Source of the DNA: Dehalococcoidales bacterium
Lineage (GTDB): Bacteria; Chloroflexota; Dehalococcoidia; Dehalococcoidales; UBA1222
Assembly: GCA_016286345.1 (NCBI GenBank)
Contig: JAEESL010000001.1
Span: forward strand, 1-50,218
DNA length: 50,218 nt
Direction: 5' to 3'
The notes beneath the pieces were generated by a model. That model saw nothing but the letters and a program-made list of their open reading frames with translations. It made no database searches and was not told where the DNA came from. Made by a program: the position numbers and the translations under genes. Of this stretch, positions 18,782 through 33,065 are shown piece after piece (the first letter of the stretch is position 1; each line of letters starts with the position of its first letter).

Positions 18782-18907
18782 TCATAATCAGTTTTTATCG
18801 AATTATCAGCTATCCCCAGTTAACTATAAAATTCGCTTATATGATTGATTATTTAGCTTTATTTAAGGATAATATATTGGTAGGTGAAGTTTTGGAGGTC
18901 AGTAATA

Positions 18908-19381
18908 ATGAAAAAGTCACTTTTATCTTTTTTCGCTGTATTATTGGTTCTCTGTTCTTTGCTGACAGGATGTCTGTCATCAGATAATAGTTCCAAAAGA
19001 GTTGTACGGACACAGATTTTTGAGAGAATAATCAGCGGAGATCAGATTGCTCAGTATGTTCCTTACGGCGCAGACGGTTTGATCAGTCAGTATAACTATT
19101 TCAAGTTTTCCTATGCTGACGGAGATACCAAACCATTTTACGGTGAATATGTGACTGCATATATATTCGATAATGCTGCAAATGCGCAGAAGCGTTATAC
19201 ATCACTATACCGGACTTATCAGGACAGAGTTGTCATCATTGACAATGTTGTTTATCTTAACGAGGATCATGTACTAGAAGGGCATGAACTTGATTACTTC
19301 GATGACTATGAATTAACAGAACAAAAATATCTGGATGATGGCTATGTTTCCATTCAGGAAAAGATTGTGGAGAATAAATAA
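18908..19381 (+). CDS. Small lipoprotein, first of three tandem paralogues
   Basis: Lipoprotein of about 157 residues. I prefer ATG 18908 (MKKSLLSFF) because GGAGG lies nine bases before it and it starts a proper signal peptide; the upstream ATG at 18884 does not. The lipobox is LLTGC. The mature part holds the repeated family signature FERIISGDQIAQYVPYGADGL (cf. the next two genes), then LISQYNYF, and the AQKRYTSLYRTYQD segment. I do not recognise a named domain. Three adjacent copies with shared order indicate tandem duplication. They may form a surface complex or bind related ligands; that is speculation. Confidence 0.75.
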   Translation: MKKSLLSFFAVLLVLCSLLTGCLSSDNSSKRVVRTQIFERIISGDQIAQYVPYGADGLISQYNYFKFSYADGDTKPFYGEYVTAYIFDNAANAQKRYTSLYRTYQDRVVIIDNVVYLNEDHVLEGHELDYFDDYELTEQKYLDDGYVSIQEKIVENK

Positions 19382-19384
19382 AAT

Positions 19385-19837
19385 ATGAAAAGGATTTTAG
19401 CTGTCTTTCTGCTGTTAGTTGTTTTTTCCATATGTGGTTGCAGTTCAGGCAATGCATCATCAACTGATTATAACCAGGTTTTCGAGCGGATAATATCGGG
19501 AGATGAAATCAGCCAGTACATTAGTTATGGTACAGAAGGTCTTGTCAGCGAATATGAATATGTTGAACATCACTACCACAGAGATGGATCAAAAGCCTTT
19601 GAAACTCAGTTCAACTACGCATATGTCTTTGCAAATGAACAGGCGGCACAGAAAAGGTTCGAGTCAATCAAACGTACATACGGCGACAGCGCAACTATCT
19701 CAGGAAAATCAATTTATATAAACCAGCTGTACGTTTATTCCGATTATGAGATGAGCTACAAGCTCAATTTTGAAGAAGAAAAAGCACAGAGACTTTCCAA
19801 CGGGTATATTGAAGTCCCTGCTGCTCCGAAAGAATGA
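19385..19837 (+). CDS. Small lipoprotein, second of three tandem paralogues
   Basis: Lipoprotein of 150 residues beginning MKRILAVFLLLVV with lipobox SICGC. After the cysteine and a short Ser-rich linker comes the shared block FERIISGDEISQYISYGTEGL, then VSEYEYVEHHYH and AQKRFESIKRTYGD. The stretch GLVSEYEYVEH is almost the same as in the third copy (GLISEYEYVEH), so copies two and three are the closer pair. It starts three bases after the first copy stops, with GGAG overlapping that gene's end. Function unknown. Confidence 0.78.
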   Translation: MKRILAVFLLLVVFSICGCSSGNASSTDYNQVFERIISGDEISQYISYGTEGLVSEYEYVEHHYHRDGSKAFETQFNYAYVFANEQAAQKRFESIKRTYGDSATISGKSIYINQLYVYSDYEMSYKLNFEEEKAQRLSNGYIEVPAAPKE

Positions 19838-19872
19838 AATTAATGAGTAATCAAATGGGAAAGGAGTATAAA

Positions 19873-20361
19873 ATGAAAAGAATAATATCATCTATTGTTG
19901 CAACAGTATTCATCGCAAGCTTATTCCTGCTTGCAGGATGCGGTTCAAAGGGTTCGACTGATTTTTCACAGGTATTTGAGAGAATGATTGCAGGTGATCA
20001 GATCGCTCAGTATATTCCCTATGGCGCAGAAGGACTTATCAGCGAATATGAATATGTCGAACATGTCTATCATCAGGGTGAAAGCAAAGCATATCTTTCA
20101 ATTTTCAGAACAGCATACACTTTTGATACAGAGGAACATGCACAGAAGCGTTTTACTACACTTCAGAGAAGCTATAAGGATGATGTTGTCATCCTTGGAA
20201 GAGCTGTATATGTAAATCAGGAATTCAATAATTCCAATGTCGGAACCATTACAGGCGGACAGAGAACTTATGATGAAATGTTCGATTATATGGCAGATCA
20301 GGGATACACACTCATAGAAGAACATGATCCGACAGGTACCAATCCAAACACGGCATCATAA
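19873..20361 (+). CDS. Small lipoprotein, third of three tandem paralogues
   Basis: Lipoprotein of about 162 residues. ATG 19873 (MKRIISSIVATVF) is preferred over 19834 because AAGGAG stands seven bases before it and the signal peptide begins there. The lipobox is LLAGC. The mature domain repeats FERMIAGDQIAQYIPYGAEGL, ISEYEYVEHVYH, and AQKRFTTLQRSYKDD. It carries an extra C-terminal extension (GGQRTYDEMFDYMADQGY) not seen in copy two. The operon ends at a strong terminator 15 bases downstream. Confidence 0.78.
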   Translation: MKRIISSIVATVFIASLFLLAGCGSKGSTDFSQVFERMIAGDQIAQYIPYGAEGLISEYEYVEHVYHQGESKAYLSIFRTAYTFDTEEHAQKRFTTLQRSYKDDVVILGRAVYVNQEFNNSNVGTITGGQRTYDEMFDYMADQGYTLIEEHDPTGTNPNTAS

Positions 20362-20375
20362 ATAGTTTTATTCCT

Positions 20376-20422
20376 AAAAAACGGACTGTATCCAACCCCT
20401 CGGATACAGCCCGTTTTTTTTT
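20376..20422. terminator. Bidirectional terminator between the lipoprotein triplet and the LolD-like ATPase gene
   Basis: Long stem with one mismatch: AAAAAACGG-A-CTGTATCC (20376-20393) pairs with GGATACAG-C-CCGTTTTTT (20402-20419), and Ts continue to 20422. A-run and T-run on either side let it stop transcripts from both convergent operons. Confidence 0.9.
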
Positions 20423-20436
20423 GCTGTTAAATACTT

Positions 20437-21093
20437 TTAGTTTATAAGTTTTCCGTTAAGTATTTTTAACTGACGGTCGGTATTTGCAACCAGCTCCAGG
20501 TTATGGGAACTCATCAGTACCGATTTGCCGTCTTTGCATTCTTTCATAAATACTTCTGTAATCAGCTTCGCATTCTCGGGGTCAAGATTGCTTGTTGGTT
20601 CGTCTGCAATTATCAGTTCGGGATTATGAGCAAGAGATCTTGCGATTGAAACCCTTCTCTGTTCGCCGCCGGAAAGACTGGCAGGGTAGGAATTCATCAG
20701 TTCCTTAAGGCCGAGTGTTTCTATCAGTTCGTATGCTCTGTCAGTATTTCTGTCCTTTCCGAGATAAAGAGGAAGGCAGATATTTTCCAGGACCGTAAAA
20801 TTCTGCATAAGATTCTGTCCCTGGAGTATATAGCCTATTTTGGTGTTTCTGAGATGGCTGAATTCATCCTTGCTCAGTTTAAGCAGGCTTTCTCCGTTCA
20901 TTTCAACAGTACCGCTGTCCGGTTTGACCAGTCCTGCAATCATGCTGAATAGTGTTGACTTGCCACATCCGGAAGGACCGATCACGGCAACGAATTCACC
21001 TTTGTCCAGTGAAAAGGAAATGTTATCTACTGCGAAGAATTCTTTTTCTCCGCGAGAATACTTCTTTGTGAGTTTATCGACTTTGAGTTCCAT
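20437..21093 (-). CDS. ABC transporter ATPase, LolD/MacB type
   Basis: ATPase of 218 residues. It has Walker A GPSGCGKST, Q-loop GYILQGQNLMQNF, ABC signature LSGGEQRRVSIARSLAH, Walker B LIIADEPTSNLD and H-loop SSHN. LolD/MacB-type ATPases partner FtsX-like permeases and power lipoprotein extraction, efflux or mechanotransmission rather than import. It starts two bases after the FtsX-like gene stops, so they form one transporter. It is the last gene of the large minus-strand block that also contains DUF4418 and the SsuABC-type importer. Confidence 0.9.
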   Translation of the reverse strand: MELKVDKLTKKYSRGEKEFFAVDNISFSLDKGEFVAVIGPSGCGKSTLFSMIAGLVKPDSGTVEMNGESLLKLSKDEFSHLRNTKIGYILQGQNLMQNFTVLENICLPLYLGKDRNTDRAYELIETLGLKELMNSYPASLSGGEQRRVSIARSLAHNPELIIADEPTSNLDPENAKLITEVFMKECKDGKSVLMSSHNLELVANTDRQLKILNGKLIN

Positions 21094-21095
21094 GA

Positions 21096-22313
21096 TTATT
21101 CATCCCCCTTGATAAGAGTTATAGGTTCTGCGCGACCGATTCTTATTGCAGAATAGAGGGATGCAAGTATGGATGATCCGATTGCTATCAGAAGAGTTTT
21201 GAGGATAAGAGGTATCAGATCTGAAGGTGAATTGTCCAGATAAGGTATTTCCAAAGCTGACGTGATCGCATTGTTGAAAATAAATGATGCGACTGCTGAA
21301 ATAATCACAGCCAGAACACCGCCTATCAGACCGATCATCACCGCTTCCAAAACGATAATCAGAACAAGCTGCTTCTGGGTTGCACCAAGAGATATAAGAA
21401 CACCGAATTCATGCTGTCGTTCATTGATAGTAATCGTGAATATACAAATCAGTGCAAGCACTGCAAGGATGAACGAAATCGTTACAAGAATAGAACTGAA
21501 ACTTGTAAGATTGTCCAGGTTATCACTGATGGCACTGAACATACCGTTCGTAGTAAATGCTTTTACAGGAATCTTGTAGGTATATGTTATCCTGCTGGCC
21601 ATTGTATTAAGATTGGCCCCGTTTTTTGCCTTTATCATGATAGCTGAAATGACATTATCAGGATCTATCGTGCTGTCAACAAGAGATTTGAATCTCTCGG
21701 ATTCCAGTATTATTTTTGATGTGTCGAATCTCATGAAAACGCAGTAGTCATATCCGGTCTGTGTGTTTTCAAGCTTTCCGACAACAGGAAAATCGATATC
21801 AAAGAATTTAATTGTGCTTCCGACATCTGCCACAACGCCATTGCCTACGATTACTTCACCATAATTGATCTCTTTTTTGTTTATGTCCTGCAGCCATGGC
21901 GTGACGATGAAATCTGTTTCCGGATCAAAAGCTATGATTTGTGTTGGAAGTCCGCAGCATTCTGCTTCAAGTGAAGCAATATACAGCTGAGGTGTCATTT
22001 GCTGTATGCCTTCAGTTTCTGCCACTTTATCCATGTAGGATCTGTCAGTGTAGAAAGTTGAACACTCTCCCAGGAAGAGAGAGGACCGCATGTTGTTTTC
22101 ATACTCCTGCGGGACAACGATGAGATCAGCGCCGATTCTGCCGATCGTTTTTTCAAGTCCAAGGTTCATGCTGTTGATAAGCAGTGAACTGATATACAGT
22201 GAAGAAGCAAGAATGAAGACAAATGCAATCATTATGCCGCTTCTTATCTTGCGGTTTGAGATGTTTCGTTTGGCTATACCAAATATAGACATCAGTTTCC
22301 GGTTGTTATTCAT
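21096..22313 (-). CDS. FtsX/MacB-like ABC permease
   Basis: Permease of 405 residues with the MacB/FtsX layout. One N-terminal membrane helix (about 25-50) is followed by a large extracytoplasmic domain (about 50-275, starting LEKTIGRIGADLIVVP). Three helices come at about 280-305, 325-350 and 370-395, with the conserved cytoplasmic segment RQHEFGVLISLGATQKQL. The start overlaps the end of the DUF4418 gene by eight bases. The ATPase gene follows directly. Because the neighbours are an importer and a reductase cluster, it may export or extract a product or lipoprotein linked to that pathway; this is inference from position only. Confidence 0.88.
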   Translation of the reverse strand: MNNNRKLMSIFGIAKRNISNRKIRSGIMIAFVFILASSLYISSLLINSMNLGLEKTIGRIGADLIVVPQEYENNMRSSLFLGECSTFYTDRSYMDKVAETEGIQQMTPQLYIASLEAECCGLPTQIIAFDPETDFIVTPWLQDINKKEINYGEVIVGNGVVADVGSTIKFFDIDFPVVGKLENTQTGYDYCVFMRFDTSKIILESERFKSLVDSTIDPDNVISAIMIKAKNGANLNTMASRITYTYKIPVKAFTTNGMFSAISDNLDNLTSFSSILVTISFILAVLALICIFTITINERQHEFGVLISLGATQKQLVLIIVLEAVMIGLIGGVLAVIISAVASFIFNNAITSALEIPYLDNSPSDLIPLILKTLLIAIGSSILASLYSAIRIGRAEPITLIKGDE

Positions 22314-22707
22314 CTTTGCAGCCCCTGTATTTCCATGCCAGAATGAGTTGTATCACCGCACCGATCACACAGATCGCATAGATGCAGGGAAAAGCAACTT
22401 TTTGACACGCCATAGCAGGGTTGGCACATCCGCCGATAGCCCATGAAGGTATCAGAATTGTTAAAGCGAATATTACTGCACTTGAAATGCAGGTAATCAT
22501 ATTCTGCGATTTTTTAAACAGTAATTTGATCAGGCCAATCACCATCAGAATGATTCCGATAATCAAAACCGCACGGCAGCTGTAGTAGCACTTCATTATT
22601 TTTTCAGCTGTGCTGCATGTCTTGAAGATTGTCCACGGTCCAATTGCCAGAAGCAGACCCAAAACAATGTCTGCTATGGCTGAGACATACCCTTTTGTTT
22701 TATTCAT
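22306..22707 (-). CDS. DUF4418-family membrane protein
   Basis: Protein of 133 residues with four predicted helices (about 8-30, 43-62, 72-92, 105-125). Cysteines recur at the membrane borders: TCSTAEKIMKCYYSCRA, GGCANPAMAC and FPCIYAIC. The pattern matches the DUF4418 family, of unknown function, which in my recollection is often found beside FtsX-like permeases and ABC ATPases, as here. SD AAGGAG lies seven bases before ATG. It overlaps the FtsX-like gene, so it is probably a third subunit of that transporter. The cysteines could bind a metal or form disulfides. Confidence 0.75.
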   Translation of the reverse strand: MNKTKGYVSAIADIVLGLLLAIGPWTIFKTCSTAEKIMKCYYSCRAVLIIGIILMVIGLIKLLFKKSQNMITCISSAVIFALTILIPSWAIGGCANPAMACQKVAFPCIYAICVIGAVIQLILAWKYRGCKDE

Positions 22708-22724
22708 CTTTTCTCCTTTTTTAC

Positions 22725-22772
22725 AGAGAATGCAGTATCACTATCGGCCGCGATACTGCATTCTCTTTTTTT
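22725..22772 (+). other. 15-bp hairpin with plus-strand T-run inside a minus-strand operon
   Basis: AGAGAATGCAGTATC (22725-22739) pairs perfectly with GATACTGCATTCTCT (22752-22766), loop of 12 bases. Seven Ts follow on the plus strand (22766-22772), but the minus-strand transcript leaves the stem through GTAAAAAA, without a U-tract. It therefore looks like an intrinsic terminator facing against the operon. In the sense transcript it would be a stabilising or processing hairpin between the binding-protein gene and DUF4418. Confidence 0.6.
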
Positions 22773-22835
22773 ATTAAAATGACACTGTCTGTTCAACAGC
22801 ATCACCTTAATAAAAATTTAAGGAACAAAAAACAA

Positions 22836-23975
22836 TTACTTTGTCAGGACAGGATTCCAGGCAAGTTTGAGTACTTCATCTACCTGTGAGGCAGTATATC
22901 GGGTAATAATGTTGTACTGGATGTAGTCAGTGATGATGTTACGGAGAGCATATTCGCATTCTTCATCTGAAATGCTCCAGTCGAGTGACCACAGAAGTTC
23001 TCTGTTCATTGCGAAGTCATCGTTTGAAGTGCAGTGGTTATCGATAAGCATCTGGGTGGCTTCATCAATGTTTCGTCGGATCCACATATGGGCCTCGTGC
23101 ACGGCATATGTGATGGCATAGGTATGAGCGGGATTCTTTGCTGCCCATTCGCTGTTGAAAGCGAGAATACAGCAGGGTTCATCTGCGAAATCTTCATCCC
23201 ATGTTATTGATCGGATGCATCGGAGAGTGCCGTCTTTGACGAACTTGTATGCATAGTAGTCTGTAAGGATTGCGCCGGCGATCTTTCCGTCTTTCATTGC
23301 CTGAACACATCCGCTGGTTTCAACTACCTGATATTTGACATCCTTCAGAGGATCAATACCTTTCTTGATGAACATTCTGCAGAGAATATTGTAGTCAGCG
23401 GTTCCGATACCTTCAGGAGGAGAAATGGTTTCGCCCTTGAGGTCTTCAAATTTCTCGTACTTTGAATCATTCAATACATAGAGTGATTTGCAGCCTGTCA
23501 TTGCGGGAGTAGTGAAGATCATAGGAGTACCATTGGTGATAGGTACAAGAAGGTTTGCAATGTGGTGAACACCGAACTGAACTTTGTTGGTACCGAGGGC
23601 TGCTTTGATTTCATTACCCTTTAAGCCTTCGATCTTAAGACCATACGGATCATATAAACCGAGTAATGCTGCATAAAGAGGACCACAGGTACAGTTACCG
23701 GTATCATATTCGTAGTAGATTGTCTGACCATATGCAGGTTCTTTTTTCATCTGGTCGACGATCTGGCTTACAGTCATGTGTCTGTAGTCATTGTCTGCTA
23801 CTGAGCTGCCGCTGCCGCCACCGTTGATTGTTGTGGTTACGGTTTCTGTTTTGGTTATGGTTTCTGTTTTGCCTGAACATGCTGCAAGCAAAGCTGATGA
23901 TGCAACTGTTGCACCACCGACCGCCAGACCGCACTTCTTGAGGAAGTCTCGTCTGTTAAGATTATTGTTCTCCAT
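22836..23975 (-). CDS. Tat-exported, cysteine-rich ABC substrate-binding lipoprotein (SsuA/NMT1-like)
   Basis: Binding protein of about 379 residues for the importer encoded just upstream. ATG 23975 is chosen because AAGGAG lies eight bases before it. The signal combines a twin-arginine motif (RRDFLKK) with a lipobox (LLAAC), so it is probably folded in the cytoplasm before export. A Thr-rich linker and a Gly/Ser stretch precede an NMT1/ThiY-like fold (FGVHHIANLLVPITNGTPM, GETISPPEGIGTADYN, GAILTDYYAYKFVK). The mature domain has about ten cysteines, including NCTCG, TGCK, SGCVQ, EPCC and NHCTS, unusual for an extracytoplasmic binding protein. Tat export plus many cysteines suggests a metal- or thiol-liganded site. 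Substrate unknown; aliphatic sulfonates, taurine or thiamine precursors are what relatives bind. Confidence 0.85.
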   Translation of the reverse strand: MENNNLNRRDFLKKCGLAVGGATVASSALLAACSGKTETITKTETVTTTINGGGSGSSVADNDYRHMTVSQIVDQMKKEPAYGQTIYYEYDTGNCTCGPLYAALLGLYDPYGLKIEGLKGNEIKAALGTNKVQFGVHHIANLLVPITNGTPMIFTTPAMTGCKSLYVLNDSKYEKFEDLKGETISPPEGIGTADYNILCRMFIKKGIDPLKDVKYQVVETSGCVQAMKDGKIAGAILTDYYAYKFVKDGTLRCIRSITWDEDFADEPCCILAFNSEWAAKNPAHTYAITYAVHEAHMWIRRNIDEATQMLIDNHCTSNDDFAMNRELLWSLDWSISDEECEYALRNIITDYIQYNIITRYTASQVDEVLKLAWNPVLTK

Positions 23976-24029
23976 ATTTTTCTCCTTTTTTGTTTTATAT
24001 TGGTGCATTTTCTGCACTTTAAAACCTGT

Positions 24030-24815
24030 TTAAGCTTCTTCCTTGACACCGAAGTGAAGAGTTTCAAGAATCTCATTACGGTATTCAACAAACTTGTTTG
24101 AAGATCTGTTTCTCGGATATTCCATGTCGATTGAAATCAGTTTCTGGACTTTTCCGGGATTCTTATCCATTACCAGCACTTTTGTTCCCATATAGATCGC
24201 TTCTTCGATTTCGTGGGTCACCATGATTGCAAGCTGCGGACGCATCTGCCACAAACCAAGCACTTCATCCTGCATATTCATTCTGGTAAATGCATCGAGT
24301 GCACTTAACGGCTCGTCCAAAAGAAGGATGTCCGGCTGGTTGATGATAGTTCTTGCCAGAGCCACACGCTGTGCCATACCGCCTGAAAGCTGGGAAGGGA
24401 ATTCATTTCTGAATTCATACAGGCCGATAAGATTCAGCATATCTTTGACTTTTTCACTGTTCTCCTTCAGAATGCCTCTCATTTTGAAAGTGAATTCGAT
24501 GTTCTGCTGAACAGTAAGCCACGGGAATAATGTGGGCTTCTGGAAAACCATTCCGCGGTTAGGATCAGTACCTATGACTTTGGCTCCGTTTACTGTGATT
24601 GAACCTTCAGTAACAGGAATAAAACCGGCAATCATTCTCAGAAGAGTTGATTTTCCGCATCCTGACTGACCGACGATTGCTACGAATTCACCGCCGTGGA
24701 ATGTCTCATTGATGTCCTCAATGACATTGAGGATCTCTTTACCTTCTTTTTTTGCAAAGGATTTATATACGTGATCGAGTTTTAATTCAATTTTTGCGTT
24801 CTCTTGATTAGTCAT
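24030..24815 (-). CDS. ABC importer ATPase, SsuB/TauB type
   Basis: ATPase of about 261 residues. I chose ATG 24815 (MTNQENAKIEL), which shares its A with the permease stop (TAATG) and has GGTGAG just upstream; the longer ATG 24839 would lie inside the permease gene. Motifs: Walker A GQSGCGKST, Q-loop MVFQKPTLFPWLTV, signature LSGGMAQRVALARTI, Walker B ILLLDEPLSALD, switch His in MVTHEIEEA. The FPWLTV Q-loop is typical of nitrate/sulfonate/taurine-type ATPases. Stop-start coupling fixes it as the partner of the permease gene at 24815-25855. Confidence 0.92.
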   Translation of the reverse strand: MTNQENAKIELKLDHVYKSFAKKEGKEILNVIEDINETFHGGEFVAIVGQSGCGKSTLLRMIAGFIPVTEGSITVNGAKVIGTDPNRGMVFQKPTLFPWLTVQQNIEFTFKMRGILKENSEKVKDMLNLIGLYEFRNEFPSQLSGGMAQRVALARTIINQPDILLLDEPLSALDAFTRMNMQDEVLGLWQMRPQLAIMVTHEIEEAIYMGTKVLVMDKNPGKVQKLISIDMEYPRNRSSNKFVEYRNEILETLHFGVKEEA

Positions 24816-25855
24816 TATCTCACCATTCCTTCTTGCCATCTGAGAACGTAGCGCTTAATGTATGCAAGTGCCTGTGTAACAACTGTGAAGATGATACAGA
24901 TGATGATCAGTGATGCATACATCTTGCCGTAATTCGCCCAGGCCTTGGCCCATACGATGTACCAGCCTAGACCGGATTCCACACCGATCATTTCCGCTAC
25001 CATCAGTGACACACAGGCAGAGCTCATACCCTGGGTCAGACCCTGGAAGATACTGGGTACTGCTGCAGGGATGGCAATTCTGAATACGAGCTGTCTTGTG
25101 TTGCAGCCGAGGTTCTGGCCGGCTTCAAAATATGACTTTTCAATGCTCTCAATACCTGTCATTGTTGCTGTTGTAACTGCGAACCAGACGCCTAGTGCAA
25201 CAATGAAAACACAACCTTTGTACAAGGTAGAGGCAATAACCATTACAAGAGGAATCCATGTTGCGGTAGGAATAGGACCGAGTAATTTGATTATCGGGTC
25301 GATCCAGTATTTTGCTTTTTTACTGTAACCGCAGATAATACCTGTCACAAAACCTATTGCAGCACCGAAGAAATAACCATAGAAGAGTAATTTCAGTGTG
25401 CTGAGTGTGCATTCCCACAGGAAAGCTGCATCGCCTTTCATTGCATTGAGAATGTCGTTGAACCATGGGAAGAACGGATATAAAAGCTTATTTGATTTGA
25501 GTGTCAGAAGATCATATGTAATAAATGCCGCAAATATAGCTGCCGTGATCGGAGCTTTACTTATAACCTTGTTATACAGGTTTTTCTTCTTCAAAAACAG
25601 ACTGACAACGAATACTGCAGTGTATGCTGCAATCAGGATAATTATAAATGTTATATAAGTGTTGGGTGACAGGTTCTTGAAATTACCGAAATTCGGAACA
25701 TAAAGGTATTCGAGAATTGCAATGATACCCATCAGGATAGGGAGACAGCAGACCAGAAAATCAAGAACCTTGTCTTTTTTTGTCTTTTCTTTCTGTTCTT
25801 TTTCCAGAAGCTGCTCAAATGTAAGCTTGTTTTGTGTTGTTGTATCTTCTTTCAT
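24815..25855 (-). CDS. ABC importer permease, SsuC/TauC type
   Basis: Permease of about 346 residues from ATG 25855 (MKEDTTTQNKLT). An in-frame ATG at 25894 lies upstream of the likely -10 and is disfavoured. Two extra helices (about 36-58, 65-85) and a third precede the BPD core. The EAA loop reads YFEAGQNLGCNTRQLVFRIAIPAAVPSIFQGL, with AEMIGVESGLGWYI beyond it, typical of the taurine/sulfonate class. A TTGACA-N17-TAAAAA promoter ends seven bases before the ATG and there is no clear Shine-Dalgarno, so the mRNA is probably leaderless. The gene heads the importer operon and lies about 90 bases after the cysteine-desulfurase-like gene. Confidence 0.9.
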   Translation of the reverse strand: MKEDTTTQNKLTFEQLLEKEQKEKTKKDKVLDFLVCCLPILMGIIAILEYLYVPNFGNFKNLSPNTYITFIIILIAAYTAVFVVSLFLKKKNLYNKVISKAPITAAIFAAFITYDLLTLKSNKLLYPFFPWFNDILNAMKGDAAFLWECTLSTLKLLFYGYFFGAAIGFVTGIICGYSKKAKYWIDPIIKLLGPIPTATWIPLVMVIASTLYKGCVFIVALGVWFAVTTATMTGIESIEKSYFEAGQNLGCNTRQLVFRIAIPAAVPSIFQGLTQGMSSACVSLMVAEMIGVESGLGWYIVWAKAWANYGKMYASLIIICIIFTVVTQALAYIKRYVLRWQEGMVR

Positions 25856-25862
25856 ATTGATT

Positions 25863-25891
25863 TTTTTACCATTAATAAAATTGATTGTCAA
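25863..25891 (-). promoter_or_regulatory. Promoter of the SsuCBA-type importer operon, containing TTGACAATCAA
   Basis: On the minus strand TTGACA (25886-25891), 17 bases, TAAAAA (25863-25868), then seven bases to the permease ATG. The -35 extends into TTGACAATCAA (plus-strand TTGATTGTCAA, 25881-25891). The same 11 bases occur at the activator promoter at 30484-30494. The element is an imperfect palindrome (TTGA-TTG-TCAA), a plausible regulator site. Confidence 0.6.
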
Positions 25892-25945
25892 CAAAGAAAT
25901 AATTTATAGATAATGAACGATTATTTGACTAAGAGTCATGTGATT

Positions 25946-27079
25946 TCAGTGTGTAATGCTTTTCAGCACTTCTATGGCTGTATCAACGTCCTTCTTTGTG
26001 TTGAACCAGCCGAAACTGAAACGCACTGCACCTTGCTTTTCTGTTCCCAGTGCTCTGTGGATCCTGGGAGCACAGTGGCCTCCTGATCTTGTTTCTATTC
26101 CGTATGTTCTGGCAAGCTCTGCTGAAATAACACCTGAATCAATGTCTCTGATGTTAAGAGCCACAACAGGTGCTTTATCAGATGAACAGCTTCCGTATAC
26201 TTTTATGCCTTCTATCTGTTTTACTGCTGATGTGAATCTTTCTGTAAGTTCCATTTCATGATCATGAATCACGTCGATTCCTGTGTTGTTTATCCATTCT
26301 AATGAAGCAAGAAGACCTGCGATCCCATGTCCGTTAAGAGTGCCTGCTTCAAGAAGAGTAGGGAAGATAGCAGGCTGTTCTTCAGAATATGTCTGAATCC
26401 CAGTTCCGCCGACATTCCATGGCCTGATTTCAACGCTCTTTCTGAATACTATGCCGCCCGTGCCCTGTGGCCCCATAAGCGCCTTGTGGCCTGTGAAACA
26501 CAGTATGTCGATATTGCTCTTCTCTATATCAATTATCCTTGCTCCTGCCGTTTGTGAAGCGTCAACGATATAAAGGAGTCCATGCTTTTCTGCAATCTTT
26601 CCGACCCGGTCTACATCAACCAGATCCCCTGTCAGATTTGATGCATGGGTTGTTATTATTGCCCTGGTGTTGGGTTTTATCAGTGATTCAAATTCCGAAT
26701 AATCAAGCTGACCGTTTGAATCGGCCTTAACAAACTCTACTTCGACATTTCTTTCTTTTCTCAGTCTGTAAAGCGGACGTAACACGGAATTGTGTTCAAG
26801 ATCAGTGCTGATAACATGATCGCCTGAACTGAACAGACCATTTATGACAATATTCAGAGCTTCTGTGGAATTATGGGTAAAACAGACAAGGTCGGGAGCC
26901 TGGCAGTTGAACAATGCGGCCACGCTCCTGCGGGCTTTGAATATGATACGTGACGAAGTCAGTGCATCTTCGTGTGTGCTGCGTCCGCTGTTTCCCATCG
27001 TGGTCATTGCTTTTACAACAGCATCTATGACTTCCTGTGGACGATTCAGTGATGTTGCTGCATTGTCAAGATAAATCAT
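25946..27079 (-). CDS. Cysteine-desulfurase-like PLP enzyme (class V aminotransferase, TIGR01977-like)
   Basis: PLP enzyme of 377 residues. The PLP-binding Lys199 lies in CFTGHKALMGPQG, His/Asp cofactor contacts are in HNSTEALN and IVDASQTAGA, and the candidate sulfur-accepting Cys336 is in RSGGHCAPRIHRALGT, the short-loop SufS-like arrangement. This subgroup abstracts sulfur (or selenium) from cysteine or selenocysteine as a persulfide. Its start overlaps the stop of the dehydratase-family gene at 27079, so it belongs to the reductase operon. No SufU/IscU scaffold is next to it; the partner could be the DUF3343 Se/S-carrier-like protein four genes earlier. A role in cluster assembly or in handling a released sulfur/selenium atom is inference. 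Confidence 0.85.
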   Translation of the reverse strand: MIYLDNAATSLNRPQEVIDAVVKAMTTMGNSGRSTHEDALTSSRIIFKARRSVAALFNCQAPDLVCFTHNSTEALNIVINGLFSSGDHVISTDLEHNSVLRPLYRLRKERNVEVEFVKADSNGQLDYSEFESLIKPNTRAIITTHASNLTGDLVDVDRVGKIAEKHGLLYIVDASQTAGARIIDIEKSNIDILCFTGHKALMGPQGTGGIVFRKSVEIRPWNVGGTGIQTYSEEQPAIFPTLLEAGTLNGHGIAGLLASLEWINNTGIDVIHDHEMELTERFTSAVKQIEGIKVYGSCSSDKAPVVALNIRDIDSGVISAELARTYGIETRSGGHCAPRIHRALGTEKQGAVRFSFGWFNTKKDVDTAIEVLKSITH

Positions 27080-28254
27080 TATCTGTTTTCCAGCATTTCT
27101 ATAAATGCTTCAATTCTTGTTCTTAGCTGGCCTTCATCTCCGGGAGCATAATCGGTTCGTACATGCAGGAACGGAACTTCGTTTTCCTCACAGATGTCTT
27201 CCAGCTTTTTGCTTTCGATATCAAACGGATCACATGCGTGAACTGTAATGCTGATCACTCCGTCAACATTCCATTCCTTCACTGTATCCATGAATTGTTC
27301 GAATCTTCTTGTGTTGGGGCTCATGACAGCACATGGTACTTCCAGATATTTATCTGCAATTGCATGCATGGGATCAGGATCCGATTCATCAATGGGTCTT
27401 CTCATGTTTAGAATACCGCAGCATCCCTCATAGCAGACGATTGCAGCACCAAGATCTTCGATTGTCTTGATTGTTTTATCTATAACTCCGTCAAGACCTG
27501 CTCCTGAAACCAGAATTCGGACCGGATGCTCATCCTTTTTGTATGGTCCTTTGCCTTCTTTCCAGTTCTCTTCCATTATCTGAAGCATTCTTTCGGTTTT
27601 TTCGATTTTGTTCTTTTTATCAAGCATGAAATACTCAGCGGTAAGAACGCTTCTCATTTGTAAACCTGTCATGGCAGGAGGATCGTATTTGCCGAGTTCA
27701 TACATCCTGGCAGTCTGGCTTCGTTCTATATTGAGTGTGTGAATCGATTTCCTCAGGTCTTCGTCAGTTATCGTTACATTGAATCTCTTTTCCAGTGCAT
27801 CCTTGAATAATTCAAGTTCTGCCTGCCAGCTTGACAGAGATCTTTCCTTGTCAGGAACATTGGGAAGATGAATTACATGCATGTCCTTCAGTTTGCCCAG
27901 CATTTCATACATCTTCTTTTTCCCGTCGCAGGTTGTTTCACCGACGATGATATCGGAATAAAAAGCAAACGGGCAGGTCTTTCCAAGAATATTTCCATAA
28001 CTTGATTTAATAAGAGGACAAAGATTCGCCGGAAGTTCTGTTTCTGCAAGCGGAATGGGAGGATCATAGTTGAATCCGCAAAGAAGTACGTTATAAAAAC
28101 CGGGGGCATTGATTATTTCCATCGGTGCATACTGACAGAATGAACCGATAACAATATCACCGTTTTCTGAGGCATTTTTCACGAAAATACTGGCATTCTT
28201 TTTTGCATTTGCAAATTCATCCATTATTTCGCTAAGTTCTTGTTCTTTACTCAT
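27079..28254 (-). CDS. 2-hydroxyacyl-CoA dehydratase / double-cubane-cluster family subunit (B)
   Basis: Iron-sulfur protein of 391 residues in the HgdB/YjiM family. Family landmarks include FCQYAPMEIINAPGF, LCPLIKSSYGNIL, the TTCDGKKKMYEML segment, LVSGAGLDGVIDKTIKTIE, CYEGCCGILNMRRP and CAVMSPNTRRFEQF, then HACDPFDIES. Cysteines in CPLIKSS, TTCDGKKK, EGCCG and CAVMSPN are candidate cluster ligands. It is a paralogue of the gene at 28514-29650; the two may form a heterodimer. Members either dehydrate 2-hydroxyacyl-CoAs by a ketyl-radical route or, as double-cubane proteins, reduce small molecules. No CoA-transferase gene is nearby, which favours the second role. Confidence 0.88.
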   Translation of the reverse strand: MSKEQELSEIMDEFANAKKNASIFVKNASENGDIVIGSFCQYAPMEIINAPGFYNVLLCGFNYDPPIPLAETELPANLCPLIKSSYGNILGKTCPFAFYSDIIVGETTCDGKKKMYEMLGKLKDMHVIHLPNVPDKERSLSSWQAELELFKDALEKRFNVTITDEDLRKSIHTLNIERSQTARMYELGKYDPPAMTGLQMRSVLTAEYFMLDKKNKIEKTERMLQIMEENWKEGKGPYKKDEHPVRILVSGAGLDGVIDKTIKTIEDLGAAIVCYEGCCGILNMRRPIDESDPDPMHAIADKYLEVPCAVMSPNTRRFEQFMDTVKEWNVDGVISITVHACDPFDIESKKLEDICEENEVPFLHVRTDYAPGDEGQLRTRIEAFIEMLENR

Positions 28255-28272
28255 TGATATGTATCCTTGTCT

Positions 28273-28527
28273 TTATAATTCGATTGTATAAATCTCGGAA
28301 AACTTTAAACCTTTTCCGGTTATATAGAGAACGAGATTGTCTTTTTCCTCTTCAGCTGCCTGCCATGCGAAACCGCAGCCGGCAGTAATGGAGTTGGGAA
28401 CAGGTATGAGCTCTCCTGCAACTCCATCTGCCTTGCACGATTCTTCCATTGCCAGTGCTGCAGTCGTGTTGGGAAATGTTATTACTGTGTATACTTTCTT
28501 TTCTTTAAGCATGTTAAATTGTCTCAA
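28273..28527 (-). CDS. DUF3343 putative Se/S-carrier-like protein
   Basis: Small protein of 84 residues matching the DUF3343 pattern: a beta-strand start (KVYTVITFPNTTAALAMEESCK), LIPVPNSITAGCGFAW with a conserved Cys-Gly, and a terminal strand. The Pfam family is described as putative Se/S carrier-like. The start overlaps the end of the upstream dehydratase-family gene by 14 bases and the next one starts 18 bases after, so it is embedded between the two reductase subunits. With a cysteine-desulfurase-like enzyme in the same operon, a persulfide or selenide relay via the CG cysteine is a reasonable inference, not shown. Confidence 0.8.
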   Translation of the reverse strand: MRQFNMLKEKKVYTVITFPNTTAALAMEESCKADGVAGELIPVPNSITAGCGFAWQAAEEEKDNLVLYITGKGLKFSEIYTIEL

Positions 28528-29650
28528 GGAATGCTGCTATACGTGTATCGATCTGACCGTCATCTGAATGAGAGTAATCTGTTTCAAGATTCATGTAAGG
28601 AACATTGATCTCATTGCATTTTTCCTGAAGAGCACGTGATTCGATCATATACGGATGGCATCCCTGAAGTGTGACATCAAGTACACCTTCAGCCTTGAAT
28701 TCCCTGACGAGATTGGGGATGTTCTCGAAACGGTGGATGTTGGGTGACATTACTGCACAGCCGATCTTGAGATAAGCATCTGCAAAGGCATCATAAATAT
28801 CAGGATTCTCTGTATCAACAAAGCATCGCATCGGTTTGATGCCGGAACAGTTTTCAAAGCAGACAACTCTTCCGTTGTTCTTTTCTATTGAACCTACGAC
28901 TTTATCAAGTACACCGCCGATAGGACATCCTGTGACAAGAATTCGTTTTTCGTCAGGATTTGTTGCATTTTCTTCCTTGATTTTTGCAACGAGTTCATGA
29001 ACAGACTGGATTGCACTTTCCAAATCAAAATTGAATTTGATGCTGTCCAGGAATTTGTAGAGCTGTACACTGGGAACAGGGGCGGGAACAGCATGCTGAA
29101 GTTCCATGAGCTCCAGGCAGGCTCTTCTGTATTCATTTCGTTTAACTGCTGCTTTTCTCAGATCATCATCGGTAATCTTCACACCGAATTTTTCCTCTGT
29201 CTTTTTTACCAGCAGTTTGATTTCATTTGCCATTAACGGCTTCGCATACGGTCGGTCAATGCCCTGGGGAATCTGCATCATGTAAACGTCCTTTAATTTA
29301 CCCAGACGTTCATACATTTTCTTTTTGCCGTCACAAGTTGATTCGCCGATGATCATATCTGCAAAGTATGTATACGGGCATTTTTCGGTAAGTGCAAAAC
29401 CGTAGCTTGATTTGATAAGTGGGCATAAATTCTTTGGTAATTCAGTTTCTGCATCGGCGATCGTTTCATCACTCATGCCGCACAGACTTACAGAAAGGAT
29501 TCCGCCGGCGTCAAAAATCTCCAGGGGAGCGAATGTACAGAAGTAACCGACAACGTTCTTTCCCTCATCCTTGACTTTCTTCATCTTCAGGAAGCCTTTT
29601 TTCCTTCCTTCAGCGTAGTCTTCGAATTTTTCTGGTAACAGATGTTCCAT
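28514..29650 (-). CDS. 2-hydroxyacyl-CoA dehydratase / double-cubane-cluster family subunit (A)
   Basis: Iron-sulfur protein of 378 residues, paralogous to the subunit at 27079-28254. Segments in order: GYFCTFAPLEIFDAGG, NLCPLIKSSYGFAL, GESTCDGKKKMYERL, VTGCPIGGVLDKVVGSIE, CFENCSGIKPMRCF, IGCAVMSPNIHRFE and QGCHPYMIESR, ending in LETDYSHSDDGQIDTRIAAF. The last motif is nearly repeated in subunit B (RTDYAPGDEGQLRTRIEAF). Compared with HgdA/HgdB the sequence looks closer to YjiM/double-cubane proteins. It starts 14 bases after the activator gene stops and is the first reductase subunit of the operon. The reaction is unknown. Confidence 0.88.
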   Translation of the reverse strand: MEHLLPEKFEDYAEGRKKGFLKMKKVKDEGKNVVGYFCTFAPLEIFDAGGILSVSLCGMSDETIADAETELPKNLCPLIKSSYGFALTEKCPYTYFADMIIGESTCDGKKKMYERLGKLKDVYMMQIPQGIDRPYAKPLMANEIKLLVKKTEEKFGVKITDDDLRKAAVKRNEYRRACLELMELQHAVPAPVPSVQLYKFLDSIKFNFDLESAIQSVHELVAKIKEENATNPDEKRILVTGCPIGGVLDKVVGSIEKNNGRVVCFENCSGIKPMRCFVDTENPDIYDAFADAYLKIGCAVMSPNIHRFENIPNLVREFKAEGVLDVTLQGCHPYMIESRALQEKCNEINVPYMNLETDYSHSDDGQIDTRIAAFLETI

Positions 29651-29664
29651 TTACATCCTCCGTT

Positions 29665-30435
29665 TTATTTGATATTGCAAGCAAATAAAGACGCCCCAAG
29701 TGCTCCTGCATATCTTCCCAGCGGATCGCTTTTTACTTCGGTGCCAAGTTTCTCAGACAGGGAATCCAGAATAAAAGGAATCTCACAAAGTCCGCCTGTC
29801 AGGCGTACAACATTGTTAGTTCCTGTTATCTTTCCCATCTGACCTCTGACCTTATTCGTAATCGAATCCACCACACCGTATGCTATGTCCTCTTTGCTCG
29901 TACCACGTCCTATAAGAGAAACCACTTCAGATTCGGCAAAGACCGTACACATTGAAGATATTGAAATGTGGTTTTTGCTTGATCTTGCCAGTTCGCACAG
30001 TGAATTAATATCGACGCCAAGAGTATTGGCCATTATTTCAAGGAATTTTCCTGTTCCGGCAGAACACTTGTCATTCATGTTGAAATTCTTGACTGCACCG
30101 TTTTCGATTTCAATTACCTTTGTATCCTGACCGCCGATATCGATCACAGTGAAGTTCTTTTCATTGAACAGATAGCATGCTCCTTTACCATGGCATGAGA
30201 TCTCTGTGATTGTCTTATCCATATACGGAACTGATATTCTTCCGTATCCGGTTGCTACACATTTGAAATCATCTCGTTCGATTCCGTTATTCTTCAGTTC
30301 TTCGAGTATTCCATTCGCAGTATCAAGACAATTCCAGCCGGTTGGAACCACTTTTTTGTAATGAATTTCTTTGTTTTCATTCAGCACTATGACTTTTGTG
30401 CTTGTTGAGCCCATGTCTATACCAAGATAATACAT
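29665..30435 (-). CDS. 2-hydroxyacyl-CoA dehydratase activator (BadF/BadG/HgdC ATPase)
   Basis: ATP-dependent one-electron donor of 256 residues. The ASKHA ATPase core shows GIDMGSTSTKVIVL, VIDIGGQDTKVIEI and LTGGLCEIPFI. The two cysteines that let the dimer hold a bridging [4Fe-4S] cluster are C124 in NDKCSAGTGKF and C163 in SSMCTVFAESE, at the same spacing as in HgdC. It hydrolyses ATP to push a low-potential electron into the partner clusters. GGGG precedes the ATG by five bases, and a TTGACA-N18-TAAAAT promoter lies upstream. It is the first gene of the reductase operon. Confidence 0.95.
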   Translation of the reverse strand: MYYLGIDMGSTSTKVIVLNENKEIHYKKVVPTGWNCLDTANGILEELKNNGIERDDFKCVATGYGRISVPYMDKTITEISCHGKGACYLFNEKNFTVIDIGGQDTKVIEIENGAVKNFNMNDKCSAGTGKFLEIMANTLGVDINSLCELARSSKNHISISSMCTVFAESEVVSLIGRGTSKEDIAYGVVDSITNKVRGQMGKITGTNNVVRLTGGLCEIPFILDSLSEKLGTEVKSDPLGRYAGALGASLFACNIK

Positions 30436-30464
30436 AATGACCCCAAATCAATGTGATATGTGTG

Positions 30465-30494
30465 ATTTTATTTATAAAGTGATTTGATTGTCAA
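30465..30494 (-). promoter_or_regulatory. Promoter of the reductase operon, containing TTGACAATCAA
   Basis: On the minus strand TTGACA (30489-30494) and TAAAAT (30465-30470) are 18 bases apart, about 30 bases before the activator ATG. The -35 is part of TTGACAATCAA, the same 11-mer that forms the importer promoter 4.6 kb away. TTTATAAA octamers flank it on both sides (30472-30479 and 30511-30518). Confidence 0.65.
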
Positions 30495-30657
30495 ACAAAA
30501 ATATATTTATAAATGAAAACAGTGATGAACATCATCGGTCTTTTTTTAATTCATCTGCTTCAGAAAAATATAAAAAAACTATTTCATATGTAATGAATAA
30601 ATGATAATATTAGGCGAATTTAAATTTTGCATGAGAAAATCTTGGAAAGCAGACATT

Positions 30658-31548
30658 ATGGATAAAATTCGAATAAAACGAGTCGGTTCAGTATCAGTTA
30701 GTTTTGTTTTCTTTGTGGTTTTATATATCGTTTTATTTTTCGCCACAAGTTACTTTTCTTCTCATGGAATAGGAGTAATTGGGCGGGGAGTTTCAATTCC
30801 AGGTATTATTACTGCTCTAGAGTTTGTAGTTGCTATCGCTATTGCTCTTAGTGACTATAGAATCGGTGGATGGGTCTCAATTGGGTTACTTTCACTATCT
30901 TTATTGTCTGCAAGTATCTCCATCATCACTTCTGGCGACCTCAGAGCTCTGTCTGGTGTGATGTATAACGTTGCCAGTATTGTTGGTATTTTAATGATCA
31001 GAAGAGGCCTTAAAAATGAACGTAAACTGGCTGATATTGATCCTCTTACCGGTGTTGCAAATAAAAGAGCAATCATTGAATCAATAGAACAGAAAATCGA
31101 ACTGAAACGCCCATTTTATCTGTTGTTCCTCGATCTTGATCATTTTAAGGAACTGAATGATACATATGGTCATGAAGAGGGTGATGTTATCCTTTCAGAG
31201 ATAGCATCAAAATGGAATGACGCTTTTAAACATTACGGACAGTTGGGACGTTATGGCGGAGATGAATTTCTTTATATCACTTTAGAAAAAGATGAAGACA
31301 AGGTGAAAGATCTTGCAAAAAGGTTTATCCGTGTTCTCTTGTCCCTTGATATCAATATCGATATAAATGTATCTGTCAGTATAGGTATCGTCAAATATGA
31401 CGGAGAAAACAATATTACGGTCAAGAAACTGATCAGTAATGCGGATACAGCAATGTACAATGCCAAAATGAACGGCCGACACGAAATTTGTGTATATAAT
31501 GATTCGCTGAGCAGAGAAAAGACATCACCTACCGCATCTAATGACTGA
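30658..31548 (+). CDS. Membrane-bound diguanylate cyclase (GGDEF)
   Basis: Predicted c-di-GMP synthase of about 296 residues. I favour ATG 30658 (MDKIRIKRVGS) since GGAAAG lies ten bases upstream; earlier in-frame ATGs lack a site. Four membrane helices (about 13-33, 46-64, 70-90, 95-112) form an unrecognised sensor unit. The GGDEF domain follows at about 128-285: DPLTGVANKRA, FLDLDHFKELNDTYGH, active-site RYGGDEF, and SIGIVKYDG. The RxxD inhibitory site five residues before GGDEF is absent (the position reads HYGQ), so product inhibition is probably missing. It is the first of two cyclase genes on this strand, divergent from the reductase operon. Confidence 0.88.
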   Translation: MDKIRIKRVGSVSVSFVFFVVLYIVLFFATSYFSSHGIGVIGRGVSIPGIITALEFVVAIAIALSDYRIGGWVSIGLLSLSLLSASISIITSGDLRALSGVMYNVASIVGILMIRRGLKNERKLADIDPLTGVANKRAIIESIEQKIELKRPFYLLFLDLDHFKELNDTYGHEEGDVILSEIASKWNDAFKHYGQLGRYGGDEFLYITLEKDEDKVKDLAKRFIRVLLSLDINIDINVSVSIGIVKYDGENNITVKKLISNADTAMYNAKMNGRHEICVYNDSLSREKTSPTASND

Positions 31549-31733
31549 TGCTGATTGTTGTGAGTTATTCTTAGATTTTTTATTCTTATTTTTTTTCTTT
31601 GATATTATCAAAAGAATTACTTCTGTATTATACTAAAATGAGATTGTCTTTATCGAATGGTAATGGCAGTGTTGGTTTGTGTTTCCTTCAGTGGAGGCCG
31701 GACTAGAGGATTCCTATGAGGTGATAATAGGTC

Positions 31734-33065
31734 GTGTTAAAAGGAAAAAGCTATTTACAATTGGTTGATAATCTTCCTGAAGAGGAAAGAACATCAGAAA
31801 ATATGCTTGCCCTTCTTGAAAAGGAAATCGGAATGATGCCGGGAGGTTTCTTTAAATACCGTGCAGAAAGAAACAGCCGTCAGGAATTTGTATACGTAAG
31901 CGATTCTATGCTCAAACTTCTTGGTTTTTCCACTGTTGAGGATTTCAAGAACAGCTGCAATAACAGTTTCTTTGAATTTGTCTATGAAGAAGACCGTGAA
32001 TCAGCAATGAATGACATTTATTCCCAGATAAGAAAAGGATCTGAGGATTATTGTGTTTACCGTGTCAGAAAAGCTGATGGCTCTTTGATGTGGGTGTTTG
32101 ATCGCGGATACAAGGCCACGGACAGTAATGGTGTCGATTGGTTCTACGTTATTATTCTTAACGCAGATAGTTTCATGCGTCAGCATATCAAGATTGAAGC
32201 AGAGCATGAAGAACTCCAGCTTATCAATCGTATTCCCGGTATGGCTACATGGGAGTATTATCCCAACAGGGATACTCTTGCAGTACGCATTACCAATTCA
32301 GAAGGTGAAATCATAGGAATCTGTGAGGATGACTTCCTCAAACGACTTAATGAAATTTCATGGATTAGTAAATCATCTGTCAGCATTATCAGGGACAATA
32401 TCCAGAAAATTCTTGAAGTCCATAGTTCAGGTTCATTTGAGTTCGAAATCAAAGTAAAAGATGAACTGTTGTGGTATAAGACAACTTTTGCAAGTATTAC
32501 ATCAAGTAGAAATAAACTGAATATTATTGCTGGACTTGCCTTCAGCATTGAAAACTATCGCAATGAAGCGGAACAATGGCGAGAAAAGGCATCAATGGAT
32601 TCTCTGACAGGTCTTTATAATCATGCATATCTGCTGAAAACCATTGAATATCATCTGTCAGAGAATAAACCGGGCACCATGCTTATGATTGATATAGACG
32701 GTTTCAAAGCTATCAATGATAACTACGGACATGTTTTCGGTGATACTATTCTGAAAAAATATGCAACAACAATGATGGAATTGTTCAGACCAAGTGACAC
32801 TATAGTCCGATATGGCGGCGATGAATTTGCCGTATTTGTTCCGATGATGACGGATCACGAACTGTTGGATAACAGGACAAAGAAGCTGATGGATACACTT
32901 CACAATATCACAACTCCTGACGGAAACTCTGTTAATGCCAGTATTGGTCTTTATGTATATGACGGAAAAGAGAACATCTCTGTAGAAGATATGATCGTCA
33001 GAGCAGATAAAGCTTTGTATACTGCCAAGAACAGTGGCAAAGCAACGTATTCATTCTACAAATAA
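31734..33065 (+). CDS. PAS-containing diguanylate cyclase (GGDEF)
   Basis: Soluble cyclase of 443 residues starting at a GTG with GAGGTG ten bases upstream. A PAS domain (about 35-145, with FVYVSDSMLKLLGFSTVEDF and RVRKADGSLMWVFDRG) is followed by a second PAS-like region (about 150-275). The GGDEF domain covers about 280-443: DSLTGLYNHAYL, MIDIDGFKAINDNYGH, VRYGGDEFAVF and SIGLYVYDG. An RxxD inhibitory site (RPSD) stands exactly five residues before GGDEF, so feedback by c-di-GMP is likely, unlike the membrane cyclase 186 bases upstream. No phosphodiesterase domain is present. It ends at a bidirectional terminator. Confidence 0.9.
   Translation: MLKGKSYLQLVDNLPEEERTSENMLALLEKEIGMMPGGFFKYRAERNSRQEFVYVSDSMLKLLGFSTVEDFKNSCNNSFFEFVYEEDRESAMNDIYSQIRKGSEDYCVYRVRKADGSLMWVFDRGYKATDSNGVDWFYVIILNADSFMRQHIKIEAEHEELQLINRIPGMATWEYYPNRDTLAVRITNSEGEIIGICEDDFLKRLNEISWISKSSVSIIRDNIQKILEVHSSGSFEFEIKVKDELLWYKTTFASITSSRNKLNIIAGLAFSIENYRNEAEQWREKASMDSLTGLYNHAYLLKTIEYHLSENKPGTMLMIDIDGFKAINDNYGHVFGDTILKKYATTMMELFRPSDTIVRYGGDEFAVFVPMMTDHELLDNRTKKLMDTLHNITTPDGNSVNASIGLYVYDGKENISVEDMIVRADKALYTAKNSGKATYSFYK

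Follow-up and report, generated by a model that had tools for sequence, protein, structure and literature searches.

Double-cubane-cluster proteins (DCCPs) are homodimeric reductases with one double-cubane cluster per monomer, and they reduce acetylene, hydrazine and azide; their cluster is among the few complex iron-sulfur (Fe-S) clusters known outside nitrogenase (PMC11971306). Genes for selenocysteine (Sec) lyase, DUF3343, coenzyme A (CoA)-type activase and a 2-hydroxyglutaryl-CoA dehydratase subunit have been linked to selenium (PMC5322559), and DCCP provisionally so (PMC10418091), so the association of such reductases with selenium or sulfur (Se/S) is already published and not new here. 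Here we describe a run of 11 co-oriented genes in a 50,218-nucleotide stretch of DNA from a rumen-type Dehalococcoidales bacterium (the window; contig JAEESL010000001.1), in which two DCCP genes are followed by an ATP-binding cassette (ABC) importer. The run suggests that a sulfur or selenium compound is imported and then reduced to a usable form.

The DCCP of Carboxydothermus hydrogenoformans (structures 6ENO and 7YYL) and the YjiM-YjiL-YtiA system of Escherichia coli resemble the window in reductase family, in eight cysteines (Cys) and in the type of ATP-driven activator, and the E. coli operon also has the DUF3343 partner. The window differs from both in having tandem reductase genes rather than one and in encoding a lyase and an ABC importer within the same run, and its DCCPs fall into an importer-linked clade separate from the crystallized C. 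hydrogenoformans protein. The published selenium-associated sets of YedE, YedF, DUF3343, Sec lyase, activase and dehydratase-like genes (PMC5322559; type 1 mlp clusters in PMC10418091) share DUF3343, lyase, activator and DCCP with the window, but a dedicated ABC importer of such kind with tandem DCCPs is not described in these papers as read here.

On the importer side, plasmid pTS2 of the rumen spirochaete Treponema saccharophilum has a module (L103 5931-14804) in the order permease, binding protein, DUF4418, FtsX, LolD-type ATPase, cysteine synthase, Sao-like ATPase, CymR-like Rrf2 regulator and Cys/Met pyridoxal phosphate (PLP) enzymes. The components from permease to LolD-type ATPase and the Sao-like ATPase are like those of the window, whereas the cysteine and methionine neighbors are not, and no DCCP was found in the pTS2 stretch read. 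The other relative is SAO, a selenocysteine-assisted organometallic system that Haft and Gwadz reportedly described in 2023 and whose organometallic role is itself a prediction. The window importer subunits are closest to SaoX, SaoA and SaoP.

Two double-cubane reductases in one gene run

The run spans 20437-30435 on the minus strand and is listed in Table 1 in gene order, from 30435 downward. All genes named there by the sequence-only reading, which an earlier model had made from the letters of this DNA, were recovered by gene calls and by Pfam or NCBIfam matches; the best Pfam matches of the 11 genes have E-values of 1e-13 to 1e-104, far beyond chance, and at the level of such matches the gene identities are secure. 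Packing is tight, with gaps of 14 bases between activator and DCCP-1, 1 base between DCCP-1 and DUF3343, and 18 bases between DUF3343 and DCCP-2, and with one base common to the DCCP-2 and lyase genes. Just 51 bases separate the reductase part from the importer part. The overlap of permease and ATPase measures 25 bases or 1 base according to which start is taken, DUF4418 and FtsX overlap by 8 bases, and 2 bases lie between FtsX and LolD. The gene calls and coordinates reported earlier stand, but some of the join lengths do not.

Table 1 Features of the gene run and its borders in the window.
Feature	Positions	Strand	Support
ATP-dependent activator (archerase, HgdC/YjiL type)	29665..30435	-	PF01869 7.5e-58; TIGR00241 248.7 bits, cut-off 125.4
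DCCP-1, double-cubane-cluster reductase	28514..29650	-	NF040772 455.6 bits, cut-off 350; 6ENO E 5e-67
DUF3343 Se/S carrier-like protein, 79 amino acids	28273..28512	-	PF11823 2e-19
DCCP-2, second double-cubane-cluster reductase	27079..28254	-	NF040772 433.2 bits, cut-off 350
Cysteine desulfurase / selenocysteine-lyase-like PLP enzyme	25946..27079	-	TIGR01977 407.9, cut-off 377
ABC importer permease	24815..25894	-	Best model SaoP NF040733, 106.4, below cut-off 295
ABC importer ATPase	24030..24839	-	Best model SaoA NF040729, 236.7, below cut-off 360
Cys-rich substrate-binding protein, twin-arginine (TAT) signal and lipobox	22836..24017	-	NMT1_2 1.1e-13; SaoX 50.5, below cut-off 300
Intergenic double hairpin, likely internal terminator or attenuator	22708..22835	-	Fold z -11.1
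DUF4418 membrane protein	22306..22707	-	PF14387 1.8e-25
FtsX-like permease	21096..22313	-	PF02687 5.8e-17
LolD-type ATPase	20437..21093	-	PF00005 1.1e-37; best NCBIfam model LolD, below cut-off
Promoter-like site TTGACA-18-TAAAAT, 29 bases before activator	30465..30494	-	11/12 matches
Terminator-like hairpin at end of run, between last gene and convergent lipoprotein genes	20383..20409	.	

Both "dehydratase" subunits exceed the cut-off of the DCCP model and are of the DCCP/YjiM type, as their earlier description as double-cubane-like had it, whereas the HadB and HadC models reach 23-93 bits on them against cut-offs of 700-750. DCCP-1 has 42% identity to DCCP-2 and about 45% to E. coli YjiM, and the nearest solved structures by sequence are 6ENO and 7YYL. 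In the alignment, all eight Cys columns common to 6ENO and the DCCP rows are Cys in DCCP-1 and DCCP-2; two of these eight are absent from the 2-hydroxyacyl-CoA dehydratase (HAD)-type relatives of the order, which served as outgroup. Because all eight conserved Cys are kept, each subunit could hold a full double-cubane cluster, in either a homodimer or a heterodimer. The activator adjoins DCCP-1 and passes TIGR00241, placing a cognate ATP-dependent activator alongside the reductases; its cluster-ligand motifs, read from the sequence, are NDKCSAGTG and SSMCTVFAESEV.

An ordinary 2-hydroxyacyl-CoA dehydratase of amino-acid fermentation would belong to the same superfamily (PF06050, PF01869), but with HadB and HadC far below cut-off, the DCCP model passed and both DCCP-specific Cys kept, it is hardly conceivable. 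No CoA-transferase or acyl-CoA dehydrogenase was recognized in the window, to which the search was confined and in which identification of genes beyond the operon was by eye only. Fermentation of 2-hydroxyacids, already judged less likely in the earlier reading, was rejected on the DCCP model and the Cys pattern, and both reductases are assigned by sequence to the DCCP family.

An importer related to SAO

The three importer subunits all have an SAO model as their best NCBIfam model, but none reaches its cut-off. In alignments, the permease has Val at the Sec/Cys site of SaoP (WMxVI[U/C]AE), and the binding protein has TD, without the CDP cysteine, at the [C/U]DP site of SaoX; no SaoB or SaoC gene is present in the run. 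Because all three cut-offs and the diagnostic Sec/Cys residues fail, the importer is taken as an SAO relative and its membership was rejected. The SsuA family (TIGR01728) of the aliphatic sulfonate importer SsuABC does not claim the binding protein either, at 34.6 against a cut-off of 163.5.

The binding protein has eight Cys in common with that of a sister genome, the same-genus Dehalococcoidales metagenome-assembled genome (MAG) Tb.RUG.278 (G112), where 'RUG' presumably stands for rumen uncultured genome. Its CC pair at 282-283 is kept in all six aligned homologues, SaoX proteins included. The window, sister and Treponema proteins have in common a Cys in the first-loop region, GC at window 175-176 and CC at 282-283. 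From an alignment with 2I48, the CC pair may lie at the ligand position of nitrate/bicarbonate-binding proteins, which we keep as a lead only. An AlphaFold model of the binding protein, made from a two-sequence alignment, had a mean predicted local distance difference test score (pLDDT) of 40 and was set aside.

Among plasmids, the pTS2 protein matches the binding protein best (28%), and the two permeases are 43% identical. Because the Treponema homologue sits in a cysteine/methionine cluster, the importer module probably handles a sulfur (or selenium) source. In a scan of all reference genomes, the binding protein matched only the sister MAG apart from a single weak and irrelevant hit, a scan of viral contigs returned no match, and a wider profile returned only general NMT1-type matches in Chloroflexota.

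DUF4418-FtsX-LolD, counted earlier as part of the block, turned out to be a separate widespread module, which in Fusobacterium lies near a second FtsX-FtsX-LolD set; a DUF4418 search in plasmids gave no match. The Fusobacterium arrangement and the thiol-rich binding protein would fit a role in metal or Fe-S supply, with the importer and DUF4418-FtsX-LolD acting on a metal or a metal sulfide and the DCCPs as bystanders. Given the Se/S neighbors in the sister genome and in Treponema, such a role is highly improbable.

Importer-reductase linkage in relatives

In the sister genome, LolD, FtsX, DUF4418, binding protein, ATPase, permease, DCCP-2, DUF3343, DCCP-1 and activator all lie in one run, with a YedE selenium transporter gene (408 bits, cut-off 200) and a small SirA-like gene directly downstream. 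True SaoX, over its cut-off, occurs in three other genomes of the order and in no more (G118, 401.8; G114, 398; G045, 440.4), and in 3/3 it is joined to DCCP and activator. DUF3343 directly follows DCCP in G118 and G114; in G045, SaoB, SaoC and SaoP are also over cut-off, and genes for DUF3343, a lyase and YedF are found at more distant places in the cluster. The importer-reductase linkage, whose absence from related genomes had been named beforehand as grounds for giving up the proposal, thus holds in five genomes by gene content.

The SaoP frames of these relatives read WMAVI*AEFIAT in G118 and WMSVI*AEMIAT in G114, with one in-frame TGA each, and WMSVICAEFIAT in G045 with Cys there. The TGA-containing SaoP genes (L055 8726-9622 and L056 4563-5465) are likely to encode selenoproteins in Dehalococcoidales. 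An ArsP_1-type permease adjoins the DCCP-activator genes in G118 (L055 12343-13035), and a SaoE/SO_0444-like permease, below cut-off, is found in G045 (L057 3718-4746).

In a maximum-likelihood tree of 26 rows, which drew a long-branch warning from the program and in which E. coli YjiM is not among the rows, the importer-linked DCCPs of the window, the sister and the SAO genomes form one clade together with a fragment from G117 (100/99). The other clade (97/97) comprises the YedF/SelD-linked DCCPs together with that of C. hydrogenoformans. That two importer subfamilies are joined to the same DCCP clade favors a direct link between importer and reductase.

The same observation bears on whether the window encodes a divergent SAO system, in which the DCCPs would reductively cleave the carbon-metal bond of an imported organometallic or organometalloid compound. 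Bona fide SAO operons of relatives carry the same DCCP clade, the nearest models of all three subunits are SAO models, and the CC pair is conserved. Nevertheless, with all subunits below the SAO cut-offs, Val at the SaoP site, the SaoX cysteine missing, SaoB and SaoC absent from the run and the organometallic role of SAO a prediction, we consider this improbable.

Selenium and sulfur context

The DUF3343 protein matches PF11823 (Se_S_carrier) with 69.3 bits, over the gathering score of 25, and has one Cys, in the motif ITAGCGFAW. The lyase falls short of the SclA model NF040779 (369 against 525) and passes the broader TIGR01977, for which it is the sole gene over cut-off in the host genome. 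A hidden Sec codon in the operon was considered and rejected: the importer and DCCP genes all stop at TAA, and the lyase TGA is followed by 13 codons only.

The host genome, a 1.46-Mb draft that is 91% complete, encodes SelD with one in-frame TGA, then SelA and SelB, which marks it by gene content as Sec-making. It encodes DUF3343 at two further loci as well, both of which have YedE-type transporters and one also YedF, the YedE and YedF matches being over cut-off. These genes, and the YedE and SirA-like genes beside the sister block, bear out the Se/S context proposed earlier. In both further loci, a kinase/NAD(P)H-hydrate-dehydratase-like protein with a weak YjeF C-terminal match is encoded between DUF3343 and the YedE/YedF genes (L008 8494-9405 and L009 8762-9628), possibly another selenium-linked gene.

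Across 156 Dehalococcoidales genomes, SelD is present in 19/19 of those that match DCCP-1 with 200 bits or more, taken as DCCP-type, compared with 97/156 overall (Fisher p 5.7e-5), and by genus in 10/10 (p 0.009); these p-values take no account of shared ancestry. Among 14 named control genomes, DUF3343, DCCP and SelD are over cut-off in the identical two, E. coli and M. jannaschii, and the E. coli trio yjiM-yjiL-ytiA is one gene run. In many other Chloroflexota genomes YedF comes after the DCCP-activator pair, in some with SelD and/or a Sec-lyase-like gene alongside. The association of the reductases with Se/S is upheld, as published before, but not the lyase as a fixed part of the operon, as it is absent from the operon in the sister.

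The DCCPs could instead serve general intracellular selenium delivery, for example by turning carrier-bound or oxidized selenium into selenide for SelD, while the substrate of the importer would be an ordinary sulfur nutrient; the two would be neighbors because both answer Se/S demand, neither feeding the other. Most DCCPs of the order occur with activator and YedF, sometimes with SelD and Sec lyase, and without an importer, the Treponema cysteine operon has the importer without DCCP, and E. coli has the bare trio. Since importer-linked DCCPs form their own clade, which two importer subfamilies join, we consider general delivery somewhat unlikely.

Transcription units and neighboring genes

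The 128-base gap after the substrate-binding protein gene is the sole large gap inside the run and holds two adjacent strong hairpins. Perfect 15-base arms lie at 22725-22739/22752-22766, before DUF4418, and a T run follows the 15-base stem when the plus strand is read. In the sister genome, a perfect hairpin of unrelated sequence is found at the same spot (L052 4103-4185), so position and shape are kept but not sequence. Because of the double hairpin, the likely layout is a main unit from activator to binding protein, with DUF4418-FtsX-LolD expressed behind a partial terminator. The two operons proposed earlier were therefore redrawn, the best split being after the substrate-binding protein and not between reductase and importer.

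Promoter-like sites such as the one before the activator show no excess over shuffles in the region as a whole, and an Rfam search of 18500-31500 gave no credible match. Two GGDEF-type genes (window 30601-33065, plus strand) diverge from the operon head and possibly have a common promoter region with the activator.

At the other end, three tandem small lipoproteins (IFERIISGDQIAxYI...) adjoin the locus (window 18884-20361, plus strand). In the sister, at least four lie on the other side of the operon (L052 10763-13029, minus strand), and copies with stop codons are present on G112:C1. The family occurs in this genus only, among the 156 genomes of the order, and has no Pfam or NCBIfam match over cut-off. 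Further away, an FtsZ/tubulin-like protein (window 11274-12443, minus strand; 61.9 against the FtsZ cut-off of 295.2) adjoins genes resembling those of glyceraldehyde-3-phosphate dehydrogenase (GAPDH) and enolase.

Proposed pathway and its meaning

In the pathway that we propose, a thiophilic compound of sulfur or selenium would enter through the Sao/SsuABC-like importer, whose binding protein is rich in conserved Cys. By hydrolyzing ATP, the activator would pass very low-potential electrons into both DCCP-type reductases, and DCCP-1 and DCCP-2 would reduce either the imported compound itself or a derivative. DUF3343 may carry the released sulfur or selenium, and the desulfurase/lyase may feed the same pool, which would supply SelD and the synthesis of selenoproteins or Fe-S clusters. 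The whole chain, from import of a Se/S source through ATP-driven reduction to hand-over to Se/S carriers, has in our estimate an even chance of being right. That the pieces form one pathway, in this order and with sulfur or selenium as the transported element, is what we infer.

Of its parts, the best supported is that the reductase set would belong to selenium/sulfur metabolism, and the second is that the importer ligand would contain sulfur or selenium or be otherwise thiophilic. Third comes reduction by the DCCPs of this ligand, or its product, with ATP-driven electrons, and last the hand-over of sulfur or selenium by DUF3343 and the lyase to SelD or Fe-S synthesis. For a nitrogen-containing substrate, also entertained earlier, nothing speaks except the reported promiscuous DCCP activities.

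Several observations weigh against the proposed pathway. The Treponema importer without a nearby DCCP implies that import and reduction are separable, and the SAO importers of relatives belong to a different subfamily from that of the window. Within the genomes surveyed, the window-type importer was found in two species of one genus only, so its link to DCCP-1 and DCCP-2 is close to a single observation. The lyase gene missing from the sister run has a homologue close to a lone DCCP gene of a different contig (L053), and the hairpin separates DUF4418-FtsX-LolD from the rest of the run. Part of the SelD association is phylogenetic, and the association weakens when counted by genus; the predicted binding-protein structure is too poor to place its cysteines. 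DCCPs themselves have no known physiological role or in vivo substrate (PMC11971306).

A broader claim, which we make tentatively and rate as rather unlikely, is that a distinct DCCP clade is the enzymatic partner of dedicated ABC importers, namely SAO and its Cys-rich relative, and reductively frees selenium or sulfur from the compound that they import. If true, this partnership would be the first physiological job assigned to DCCPs. The binding protein encoded in the same run would offer a direct handle on a candidate DCCP substrate, and the same handle would apply to SAO, which in this order is always beside a DCCP of the same clade (3/3 genomes).

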